21,171 nucleotides of DNA from positions 1 through 21,171 of IMG/VR virus record IMGVR_UViG_3300036770_005957; one strand, written 5' to 3'. The notes below the pieces were generated by a model. The model saw only the letters and a program-made list of their open reading frames with translations. It made no database searches and was not told the DNA's origin. Of this stretch, positions 6,903-19,080 are shown piece by piece (position 1 is the first letter of the stretch; each line of letters opens with the position of its first letter). Both the position numbers and the translations under genes were made by a program. Source of the stretch: a virus.

Positions 6903-7469
6903 ATGGCATCTACTCCAGTTATACTACTTTCTAAGCGATCTGGTAATTCTTCTGATCGCCCAAATACATCTACGGTTCAAGCTGGCGAAGCCGCCATGAG
7001 CTTCGGTGCCGCTGACCCTGGTCTGTACTTTAAGGATTCTGCTGGAAGCATTCGGAAGTTTGGATCAAATCACTACGGGACTACAGCTCCTAATTCTGCT
7101 CCTGTTGGTTCAACGGGGAATTCTGTAGGAGAAACCTGGGTCGATTCATCAAGCAGCAGTTACTACCTTCGCGTCTGGACTGGAGCCTCGTGGCAGAAAG
7201 TTGGAGCCGGCTTTGCAGATACAACCAACACAGCCAACAGCGCTACAACCGCTGGAAGTGCTGCAACTGCAACCGTAGCTAACTCTGCTGTCGTAGCCAG
7301 CGGCGCCCTTTCGTCAGTTGTAGCCAGCGGCGCCCTTTCGTCAGTTGTAGCCAGCGGAATACAAGTAGTTACTACTTTACCCGCTGCCTCAACCGGGTAC
7401 CTTGTATATCTAAATGCAGGAGCTAGCGGTCTTTATGTGTCGGCCAACGGAGGTTGGATCCTCACATAG
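6903..7469 (+). CDS. Tail-fibre-like protein
   Basis: This 188-residue protein has an N-terminus of the kind found on many phage fibres: VILLSKRSGNSSDRP, then VQAGEAAMSFGAADPGLYFKD, a short beta module reading out a label-like LYFKD. A second module with GETWVDSSSSSYYLRVWTGASWQKV (about 78-103) is the common WVD...LRVW..ASW type. From about 108 it is an Ala/Ser/Thr/Val-rich shaft with tandem VVASGALSS units, and it ends with a short Gly-rich tip (TGYLVYLNAGASGLYVSANGGW). Such proteins trimerise as tail or short fibres. Its stop overlaps the end of the convergent Dps-like gene by 8 bases. Confidence 0.85.
   Translation: MASTPVILLSKRSGNSSDRPNTSTVQAGEAAMSFGAADPGLYFKDSAGSIRKFGSNHYGTTAPNSAPVGSTGNSVGETWVDSSSSSYYLRVWTGASWQKVGAGFADTTNTANSATTAGSAATATVANSAVVASGALSSVVASGALSSVVASGIQVVTTLPAASTGYLVYLNAGASGLYVSANGGWILT
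7293..7357 (+). repeat. Exact 27-nt tandem repeat, 2.4 copies, in fibre shaft
   Basis: The units 7293-7319 and 7320-7346 are identical over all 27 bases, and 7347-7357 repeats the first 11. Each unit begins GTAGCCAGCGGCGCC and encodes VASGALSSV in frame. Perfect identity, including third codon positions, points to a recent duplication or slippage event in the fibre shaft. Confidence 0.95.
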
Positions 7470-8004
7470 AACCTCTAAGTGTAGCCTTTAGCATCCACGC
7501 TCCTTTAAACAGATTGCCGCAGATCTCAGCTGAAAAGTTTTCAACGTCCGGAGCGCCAGTCTCACGAGCTACTTCTGTCAGATTTTTGGCCAACATAGCG
7601 CCTGCTTCAAGGTTTTTAGTGTAGAGAATCAAACCTTCGCGGGCGTCATAGGTTTTTACGGAGGGGAATTTTTTGTAAGCGTCAAAAAGGCCGCATTGGC
7701 AGGCTGGCATCAGATAGTCCATGCTTCGGACTAACTCAGCGATGGTGTCAAAATCGGTTACATGTTGAGCATATTGCTCACCTAAGAAGTCGTGAACAGC
7801 TAAAAAGTTAGAGCACTCAACATTCAGATGCAGAAGATGAGCTTGGATATTTAGCTGGTATAAATATGAGGCAAAGGAGACCATCTGATAAGCAAGGTTA
7901 TCAGGCGTGGCCTCCTTTGTGATAATCACCTCCTCTTTAACGACTTCTTGTGTCGGCGCTTCAGTCGCGCTTTGGAAGATATCGGCCAAAGAGGAGGTGT
8001 TCAT
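7462..8004 (-). CDS. Dps/ferritin-like protein
   Basis: This 180-residue protein has a roughly 38-residue acidic tail and then a four-helix-type domain. Residues 59-90 follow the Dps pattern closely: HLNV (59-62), NFLAVHDF (66-73), then FDTIAE (85-90). Aligned by spacing to E. coli Dps (His51, His63, Asp67, Asp78, Glu82), His59, His71, Asp86 and Glu90 are kept, while the Asp67 position is Gly75 with Glu76 next to it. The C-terminal helix GNLFKGAWMLKATL also fits. Dps proteins store iron, detoxify peroxide and often bind DNA; whether this one oxidises iron is open. It is encoded 9 bases after the HTH gene on the same strand, against the virion genes. I made the family call by motif alone. Confidence 0.8.
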   Translation of the reverse strand: MNTSSLADIFQSATEAPTQEVVKEEVIITKEATPDNLAYQMVSFASYLYQLNIQAHLLHLNVECSNFLAVHDFLGEQYAQHVTDFDTIAELVRSMDYLMPACQCGLFDAYKKFPSVKTYDAREGLILYTKNLEAGAMLAKNLTEVARETGAPDVENFSAEICGNLFKGAWMLKATLRGSM

Positions 8005-8265: not shown

Positions 8266-8317
8266 TTAATTTGACGTTGTTGATGACGACAACGAAAGGA
8301 GGTTAGCAGGAATCTTC

Positions 8318-8389
8318 ATGAAGAAAGTCTGTGATCTCGGGTTTTATATTGATTTAACTTTTGACACGGTAGACTGTAGAGACGCGTGA
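8318..8389 (+). CDS. Possible 23-residue ORF in a divergent intergenic region
   Basis: ATG at 8318 opens a 23-codon frame (MKKVCDLGFYIDLTFDTVDC...) that ends with TGA at 8387-8389, ten bases before the next gene. AAAGGAGGT at 8295-8303 and AGGA at 8308-8311 precede it, the strongest Shine-Dalgarno-like sequence nearby. The peptide has two Cys and matches nothing I know. It could equally be a leader peptide or chance, so confidence is low. The surrounding 8266-8399 region must also hold promoters for both directions. Confidence 0.25.
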   Translation: MKKVCDLGFYIDLTFDTVDCRDA

Positions 8390-8399
8390 GACGCAAGCC

Positions 8400-16615: not shown

Positions 16616-18526
16616 ATGGATCCCACTACTTTAAGGAACATGATGGGCTCTGCGGGTGCAGCTAGCCCAGCTTACATCGAAGATGTCTTCAGCACCTGGC
16701 TTTATACCGGCAACAGCAGCACGCAGACAATCACGAATGGGATTGATTTGAGTGGTAAAGGGGGACTGGTTTGGTGCAAAGCAAGATCGGCGGCATATAG
16801 GCACGAATTAGTTGATACAGCGAGAGGAGGAGGCAATAAGCTTGAGAGTCAAAGTACAGCCGCCCAGGCAACAGGCGGCAGCGACATTACAGGCTTTACT
16901 TCATCTGGTTTTACACTTGGAAATGTTTCCGGAGAAGTTAATTTTAGTGGGGCTACGAATGCCTCCTGGACCTTCCGCAAGGCGGCGAAGTTCTTTGATG
17001 TGGTGACTTATACGGGGAATGGCACTGATCAGCGTGCAATCAGCCACAACCTTGGCAGCACACCTGGCTTCTTTATCGTCAAACGTACCGATAGCACTGG
17101 CAACTGGAACTGCTATCACCGCTCCCGTGGCAAGGACAAATCACTACGTCTGAACCTAACTGATGCAGAAGTAGCCAATACCGATCCAACCTGGAATGGG
17201 ATGTGGGGCGGCGAGCCTACTTCTACAACATTCACAGTCAATAACAGCACTAACTCGTGCAACACGAACGGCGCCACGTACGTCGCCTACTTATTCGCGC
17301 ACGACGCTGGCGGGTTTGGCGATAGCGGCAATGACAGTGTGGTGAAGTGTGGGAGCTTTACGACGGATGGGAGTGGCAACGCCACGGTAAATCTTGGGTG
17401 GGAGCCGCAATGGTTGTTGGTTAAGCAAAGTGCTGCAGCAAGTGATTGGCTTTTAATTGATGTCATGCGCGGCGCTTCTCAAACTGGTGTATATCCTTTA
17501 AGTGCCAATTCTGCTGCTGCAGAAAACCCATCAACAGGCGGCCCGTATTGGGTGCCGACCTCAACCGGATTTAGCACTACTTCTTATTGGGCAAGTGCGA
17601 CTGCAATCTACATCGCCATCCGCCGTGGGCCGATGAAGACGCCCACCGATGCCACGAAGGTGTTTAGCGCCGTGTTAACCACATCGCAACCGATGAGCAT
17701 TGGTTTCCCGACAGACTTACATATTGATTGCCAACCAGGAGTAGATAGCTCTAAATACTGGGTTCCTAGATTAACTAACGGCTACATGAGTTCCACTTCT
17801 ACGGGCTCTGAAAGCGCTGGAGCTACATACTTTAAGTTTGACCTGCAGAATAGTTTTAGCACAGGTAGTTTTTGGGGTAGTGCTCAAACTATTAATTGGC
17901 AGTTCCGCCGCGCCCCCGGCTACTTCGACGTGGTGGCTTATACGGGCACAGGCGTAGCGCGCACTGTAAGCCACAATCTTGGCGTGGCGCCGGAGTTGAT
18001 GATTGTTAAATCTAGAAGCAATGCCTCTTCTTGGATTGTCTATAGTGCGACCCTGGGCAATAATAATTGGCTGGCTTTAAATAGTGTTGACGCGCAACTC
18101 GGCGCAACTGCAATGTGGAATACAACAACTCCGACAGCAAGTGTATTTAGTACGGGAGGAGCGGTTGCAACAAACCTTTCTGGTTACACCTACATCGCCT
18201 ACCTCTTTGCCACCTGCCCCGGCGTGAGCAAAGTCGGCAACTACACCGGCACTGGCACCACCAAACAAATTGACTGCGGCTTCACGGCCGGCGCACGGTT
18301 TGTGTTAATTAAGCGCACTGATTCTACAGGTGATTGGTACGTTTGGGATAGCGCCAGAGGTATTGTTGCTGGTAACGATCCCTACCTACTTTTAAATAGC
18401 ACCGCAGCTGAAGTCACCAGCACTGATTACGTAGATACGTACAGCGCTGGTTTTGAAATTAGCTCAACAGCTCCCGCCGCAATTAACGCTAACGGCGGTT
18501 CTTATATTTATCTTTCAGTGGCGTAG
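16616..18526 (+). CDS. Large multi-module tail-fibre/adhesin protein
   Basis: This 636-residue protein is built from about five or six related beta modules. The clearest are residues 127-230 (FDVVTYTGNGTDQRAISHNL, then FFIVKRTDSTGNW and YVAYLFAHD) and 437-533 (FDVVAYTGTGVARTVSHNLG, MIVKSRSNASSW, YIAYLF). Less regular copies lie at 22-125, 240-340 and 538-636. Similar repeated modules are known in phage and bacterial fibre proteins, and DUF7483-type is my best guess. It probably binds the host surface. It starts 6 bases after the previous fibre gene and ends two bases before the HNH-type gene. Confidence 0.85.
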   Translation: MDPTTLRNMMGSAGAASPAYIEDVFSTWLYTGNSSTQTITNGIDLSGKGGLVWCKARSAAYRHELVDTARGGGNKLESQSTAAQATGGSDITGFTSSGFTLGNVSGEVNFSGATNASWTFRKAAKFFDVVTYTGNGTDQRAISHNLGSTPGFFIVKRTDSTGNWNCYHRSRGKDKSLRLNLTDAEVANTDPTWNGMWGGEPTSTTFTVNNSTNSCNTNGATYVAYLFAHDAGGFGDSGNDSVVKCGSFTTDGSGNATVNLGWEPQWLLVKQSAAASDWLLIDVMRGASQTGVYPLSANSAAAENPSTGGPYWVPTSTGFSTTSYWASATAIYIAIRRGPMKTPTDATKVFSAVLTTSQPMSIGFPTDLHIDCQPGVDSSKYWVPRLTNGYMSSTSTGSESAGATYFKFDLQNSFSTGSFWGSAQTINWQFRRAPGYFDVVAYTGTGVARTVSHNLGVAPELMIVKSRSNASSWIVYSATLGNNNWLALNSVDAQLGATAMWNTTTPTASVFSTGGAVATNLSGYTYIAYLFATCPGVSKVGNYTGTGTTKQIDCGFTAGARFVLIKRTDSTGDWYVWDSARGIVAGNDPYLLLNSTAAEVTSTDYVDTYSAGFEISSTAPAAINANGGSYIYLSVA

Positions 18527-18528
18527 AC

Positions 18529-19080
18529 ATGGCAACCAAAGACCCCTTCCGCAAGGCATACACACAACAAAAGAGCAACGTGCGACAGCGTGGACTTGAA
18601 ATGCGATTGACTTTTGAGGAGTGGAAGCAGATCTGGCTTGATTCTGGATACTGGGAAGAGCGAGGTCGCGGCTCTTGCAAATACTGCATGATGCGTAGAG
18701 GTGATCAAGGTCATTACGAAATCGGCAATGTTTTTATTGGAACTAATGCCCAGAATGTAAGCGATGGCAATTTGGGCAAGCCTGACACTGAAGAGACCAA
18801 ACGCAAAAAGTCCGAAGCGCTTAGTGGCCAGCCAAAGCTATGGGCTCGTGGCAACGGCAACCCGAGGCACCGCCCAGAAGTTAAAAAGAAAATCTCTGCT
18901 GCTATTGGCGGCGGAAAGCACTACAGCGCACGAAAAGTTGTTACCCCGTTTGGAGAATTTGATTCGGGCGCGACAGCAGCAGAAGTGTTAGGTATCCCTA
19001 GGCCCACAGTTTACTGGCGATGTAGTCGTTCTTGGAAAGGTTGGACCTATGCTGAACCTGAGGATCTTGCTGTAGCATAG
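18529..19080 (+). CDS. HNH/NUMOD-type putative homing endonuclease
   Basis: This 183-residue basic protein starts two bases after the fibre gene. CKYC (50-53) followed by MRRGDQGHYEIGNVFIGTN and AQN resembles a zinc-linked HNH-like nuclease core found in phage mobile genes. Residues 83-128 hold two NUMOD3-like helices (KRKKSEALSG and KKKISAAIGG). The C-terminus FGEFDSGATAAEVLGIPRPT and WKGWTYAEPE is a NUMOD1-like DNA-binding part. It is probably a mobile nuclease inserted between a fibre gene and its chaperone. Alternate-frame readings inside are shadows. Confidence 0.8.
   Translation: MATKDPFRKAYTQQKSNVRQRGLEMRLTFEEWKQIWLDSGYWEERGRGSCKYCMMRRGDQGHYEIGNVFIGTNAQNVSDGNLGKPDTEETKRKKSEALSGQPKLWARGNGNPRHRPEVKKKISAAIGGGKHYSARKVVTPFGEFDSGATAAEVLGIPRPTVYWRCSRSWKGWTYAEPEDLAVA

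Follow-up and report, generated by a model that had tools for sequence, protein, structure and literature searches.

In canonical Dps proteins, the Asp or Glu carboxylate at position 67 coordinates the site-B metal via water; in the His-type Dps of cyanobacteria, this position holds a non-coordinating Asn and Asp78 is replaced by His, with iron still bound at the centre (PMC6675082). Dps genes are also already known from phages: they have been described in phages of L. plantarum (PMC6669764), occur in Streptomyces and Campylobacter phages, and are represented in the GenBank annotation of S-EIV1, which has been placed among the freshwater cyanophages (PMC9382816) and whose group made up ~3% of the cyanophage content in one ocean survey (PMC5332604). 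A literature search for Dps in cyanophages returned nothing specific, and no functional test of a phage-borne Dps was found in the literature examined.

The locus described here lies in a window, i.e., the whole stretch of DNA analysed, that spans the full 21,171 bases of a virus record and carries a mini-ferritin ORF on its minus strand. The ORF and its surroundings are summarized in Table 1.

Table 1. Position, strand and supporting matches of the mini-ferritin gene and the features around it
Feature	Coordinates	Strand	Remarks
Dps-type mini-ferritin gene	7462..8004	minus	180-aa ORF; Pfam, PHROG, PDB and AlphaFold/Foldseek in agreement
N-terminal extension, ~residues 1-33	7905..8004	minus	acidic; low model confidence; short helix 6-14; without basic DNA-binding tail
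HTH_17 / excisionase-like gene, 83 aa	8014..8265	minus	PF12728, 26.3 bits vs cutoff 27; phrog_2907
Divergent intergenic region, HTH-dps unit vs rightward genes	8266..8399	.	presumed promoter region
Tail-type protein gene	6903..7469	plus	phrog_356 minor tail protein, E 2e-16
NblA-like ORF, 83 aa	8681..8932	plus	PF04485, 20.0 bits vs cutoff 25; ~0.7 kb from dps

Judged by its profile matches and its predicted fold, the ORF encodes a Dps-type mini-ferritin, as an earlier note made from the letters alone had proposed. The product exceeds the Pfam cutoff of 24.5 bits for PF00210 (Ferritin) with a score of 28.7 and matches phrog_3636 at E 2e-19 in the PHROG search and, among PDB sequences, the Campylobacter Dps 3kwo at E 5e-7 as a single sequence and at E 1e-11 with the family profile. 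The AlphaFold model, which is that of a monomer (mean pLDDT 81), places helices at residues 34-61, 67-94, 121-149 and 152-179 and a short BC helix at 96-103, giving a Dps-like four-helix bundle with no fifth C-terminal helix. Comparison with the PDB using Foldseek returned Dps-type mini-ferritins for nearly all of the top folds (TM ~0.65-0.84), and the best matches among the phage structures of BFVD are likewise annotated Dps. The earlier note had named two outcomes that would speak against its reading, a profile search without a ferritin or Dps hit and a fold other than a four-helix bundle; the profile search finds ferritin/Dps, and AlphaFold predicts the bundle. Its suggestion of DUF5856-type proteins was not borne out, PF00210 being the sole Pfam match at E ≤ 1. 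An origin from a cyanobacterial host DpsA is unsupported by the profile scores, the family profile being no closer to cyanobacterial Dps (2vxx, E 3e-4; 5hjf, E 9e-4) than to others such as 3kwo, and among genome contigs the search for a cellular relative yielded just one match, 35 residues long, to a Halobacteriovorax MAG, which a whole-genome search did not confirm. Between close relatives of the window protein, dN/dS is ~0.02-0.09, which speaks for strong purifying selection; the values are approximate, several pairs being close to saturation at synonymous sites. Three uncultured Caudovirales proteins named prohead protease in BFVD (A0A6J7WPK9, A0A6J7XDU5 and A0A6J7WIS1) also match the Dps fold, hinting by these structural matches at Dps-head-protein fusions in other phages.

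To describe the metal site, the protein was aligned with an E. coli Dps sequence that was checked at the ligand positions H51, H63, D67, D78 and E82. His59, His71, Asp86 and Glu90 of the window protein are spaced, free of gaps, exactly like H51, H63, D78 and E82; Gly75 occupies the Asp67 position and Leu60 the Trp52 position, W170 lies in the last helix, and H56, H81, R93, C102 and K140 are conserved in the family. The earlier note had placed His59, His71, Gly75, Glu76, Asp86, Glu90 and Trp170 correctly. It had also described a single altered ferroxidase ligand, of which the Gly at the Asp67 position stands, but the alteration is not specific to this copy: it is family-wide, and Trp52 is gone as well. 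Among 110 unique homologues, 101 keep the equivalents of H59, H71, D86 and E90, and in these 101 position 75 is Lys (87), Gly (8), Gln (2), Arg (2) or Asn (2) and never Asp or Glu, so that the Gly of the window protein is a minority state and Lys the usual one. Position 86 is Asp in all 101, and the Trp found directly after the first His ligand of E. coli Dps (W52) is replaced across the family by Leu, rarely by Phe or Ile. Glu76 was considered as a substitute ligand and rejected, position 76 being variable (K31, E21, D3, G2, A2, T1; n=60). With its site-A residues canonical and its site-B carboxylate gone, the phage family falls into neither described class of centre, and the lysine at site B may weaken or replace the site-B metal. 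On the same sequence grounds, the missing Asp/Glu67 of site B, here Gly75, the protein is classed as Dps-type, its centre being non-canonical, rather than as a canonical Dps.

The remaining nine homologues are unique full-length proteins that jointly carry H56N, H59S, H71S, D86N and W170G and keep E90; no intermediate with partial ligand loss occurs among the 110. In a tree of the homologues built with the ligand columns masked, they group as a single clade (support 1.0) that branches from within the ligand-bearing proteins (support 0.71-0.93). Their ORFs are complete at 177 aa, with unchanged gene order and a single copy in the records searched, and dN/dS within the clade is 0.03-0.08. Their match to Pfam Ferritin is weak and under its cutoff; for one of them, similarity to 3kwo is still seen (E 2e-4). 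The first set of 60 proteins had been recruited partly by the motif HL[LI]HLN[VLI]E, which covers H56 and H59, so that the 60/60 ligand invariance seen there is partly an artefact; recruitment by the neighbouring HTH gene is unbiased and exposed the ligand-less clade. Ten residues are invariant among the ligand-bearing members but not in the family as a whole (H56, H59, F67, H71, F73, Q77, D86, N156, K167 and W170) and look like one functional module. Fifteen others are invariant in 110/110 (Q54, N61, E63, Y78, F85, E90, R93, D96, P100, C102, Y128, N131, K140, D153 and F166) and may mark the fold together with a metal-independent role. The all-or-none ligand pattern, 101 versus 9, is as predicted for a working metal centre, and since partial loss is not seen in the 101/110 ligand-bearing homologues, metal binding is probably selected in those members. 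Retention of the ligand-less clade means, in turn, that iron chemistry at the site cannot be the sole selected function across the family, for which reason a second, metal-independent role is proposed.

The HTH gene lies directly upstream of dps on the same strand, separated by a 9-bp gap, and the two form a probable two-gene unit that is inverted within the tail module. The tail-type gene converges on dps, the two genes sharing 8 bp at the 3' end of dps. Matches to consensus promoters near dps were no commoner than chance, and none in the divergent intergenic region was convincing. Order and strands of five genes, in window orientation tail (+), dps (-), HTH (-), small ORF (+) and NblA-like ORF (+), are the same in 70/70 complete loci. 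When an unrelated, conserved window gene (1698-2318) was used as bait, dps occupied the same slot in 31 of the 32 loci that extend 6.5 kb or more downstream. Recruitment through the adjacent HTH gene found it in that slot in 70 of 71 loci. The exception, an 82-kb record (loci L151/L233), lacks dps cleanly, holds no copy elsewhere and keeps the HTH gene (L151 15840-16119). By these locus counts, dps is a near-core gene in the S-EIV1-related cyanophage lineage. Elsewhere in the window, the minus-strand ORF at 1137-1706 encodes an AP2-domain protein (PF00847, 30.1 bits against a cutoff of 33.3), sits between two conserved genes and is found in the loci of only five relatives; its product is a probable homing endonuclease. 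Another homing endonuclease is likely encoded on the plus strand at 18529-19080, where a NUMOD3-motif protein lies between tail-fibre-type genes.

The relationship to S-EIV1 is seen in the collinearity of window genes with its structural region (62.9-76.9 kb). An 85-kb relative (G004) shares with it a terminase at 53% identity, a phrog_20475 structural protein with a weak portal match at 47% and the major head protein at 69%. The only close annotated phage homologue of the mini-ferritin that was found is the S-EIV1 copy, named 'DNA-binding ferritin-like protein' (AHV82153.1; KJ410740 18619-19173), which is 49% identical over 138 residues and matches PF00210 at 39.6 bits. Like the window protein, it has the equivalents of H59, H71, D86 and E90, Gly at the D67 position, Leu at the W52 position and the equivalents of H81 and C102; unlike it, it is longer and has a different N-terminus. 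The location also differs, the window gene lying inside the structural module and the S-EIV1 gene ~45-50 kb away from it, next to an ORF annotated as sulfate adenylyltransferase. For this ORF (17153-18619; L025 14423-15889), Pfam gave no hit at E ≤ 0.01, and its annotation looks doubtful. The S-EIV1 record also seems to be without an annotated major head protein. At 60859-62010 (L027 15859-17010) it has a forward ORF of 383 aa whose product is 69% identical to the head protein of a relative; in its place the record lists an antisense ORF and a 3' fragment.

NblA is an adaptor for phycobilisome degradation, and an NblA-like gene is present ~0.7 kb from dps in 70/70 complete loci. The window ORF resembles NblA and is called NblA-like only, given its PF04485 score under the cutoff. 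PF04485 matches 7 of 32 relatives at E ≤ 0.01, and the family profile has NblA 1ojh as its sole PDB match (E 0.078). The predicted structure of the ORF is of low confidence, and Foldseek gave no informative match for it. Across related genomes, the PF04485 cutoff is exceeded in 5 of 12; in G004 it is passed (25.4 bits) by another small ORF that is remote from dps. No psbA was found in the 11 genomes searched, and the single hli match, a weak and stop-interrupted one in S-EIV1, is doubtful. The NblA-like genes and the S-EIV1 relationship argue for phycobilisome-bearing cyanobacteria as hosts, and through the same genes and the S-EIV1 collinearity the photosynthetic host suggested in the earlier note gains indirect support.

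On balance, we lean towards a mini-ferritin with an altered, mainly site-A metal centre that would protect infected cyanobacteria from iron and peroxide and would have a metal-independent role in all members. By analogy with the Dps family, the subunits would assemble into a hollow 12-mer, and Fe(II) would be bound and oxidised, by peroxide or oxygen, at an inter-subunit centre, mainly at a site A formed by His59 of one subunit and Asp86 and Glu90 of its neighbour, with site B presumably weakened. Free iron and peroxide would be lowered during the breakdown of the photosynthetic apparatus by the phage. A metal-independent cage role, exerted through residues kept in all homologues (e.g., Y78, E90, R93, D96, P100, C102, Y128, N131, K140 and D153), would account for the maintenance of ligand-less versions. 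Two counterpoints apply: the site-B lysine could abolish ferroxidase activity even with the other ligands present, and the ligand-less subclade shows that iron chemistry is not always needed.

More tentatively, the proteins may be a moonlighting family in which a metal-independent infection role is selected in every member and the ferroxidase centre is a separable module, re-engineered in most of them and removed in one clade, a pseudo-ferritin. Replacement of the site-B carboxylate by Lys or Gly would then have been accompanied by co-evolution of H56, F67, N156, K167 and W170, and removal in the clade apparently took place as a unit.

It is rather unlikely that the protein is primarily a structural or host-interaction cage, either a virion component or a scaffold for a phage or host protein, with metal binding secondary and the ligand-less clade as its pure form. 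The purifying selection, fixed slot and single copy of that clade would fit such a cage, as would the 15 invariant residues, most of which are not ferroxidase ligands, the position of dps within the tail module and the Dps-like folds of the BFVD proteins named prohead protease; against it stand the retention of the ligands in most homologues with zero partial losses, and the orientation of dps, which runs counter to the tail genes and makes simple late co-expression less likely. That the protein binds and condenses the DNA of phage or host and so protects it is improbable: the names given to phrog_3636 ('DNA binding protein') and to the S-EIV1 product point that way, but they come from homology and not from assays, and the window protein has a pI of 4.75 and lacks the lysine-rich tail of E. 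coli Dps. Its N-terminal 40 residues carry a net charge of -5, which is also the family median, so that DNA binding through this acidic N-terminus is unlikely. That the gene is a decaying, functionless remnant of host origin, with the Gly substitution as a first step of degeneration, is disfavoured and very improbable, since the missing canonical ligand and the one genome cleanly without the gene are outweighed by the low dN/dS of both close relatives and the ligand-less clade, retention in 70/71 loci and full-length ORFs throughout.

Features that appear to be new within the literature and records searched are the replacement of the site-B carboxylate throughout the family, a clade under purifying selection that has lost its ligands in an all-or-none manner, and the fixed neighbourhood with an NblA-like gene. 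Altered-site, ligand-less and gene-absent variants occur naturally in one genomic slot, making phage use of a mini-ferritin directly testable by comparison. That dps is consistently accompanied by an NblA-like gene suggests a part in handling photosynthetic iron and oxidative stress during infection.

Compared with known systems, the window family shares with canonical Dps (E. coli Dps; Campylobacter 3kwo; P. aeruginosa PA0962, 8ff9) the four-helix bundle, the BC helix, H51/H63/D78/E82 and the C-terminal Trp, but differs in the absence of Asp/Glu67 and Trp52, in its extra invariant residues and in its acidic N-terminal extension. The Dps of Streptomyces, Lactobacillus, Cronobacter and Campylobacter phages likewise share H51/H63/D78/E82 with it; in contrast, they keep Asp67 and Trp52 in 7 of 8 cases, the Campylobacter phage CP220 having Gln and Tyr, and none of them groups with the window family. 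The cyanobacterial His-type Dps (NpDps4, TeDpsA; PMC6675082) resembles the phage family in having no carboxylate ligand at position 67, whereas it has His at position 78, where the phage family keeps Asp. A family-wide Lys or Gly at site B would constitute a third type of ferroxidase centre beside the canonical and His types.
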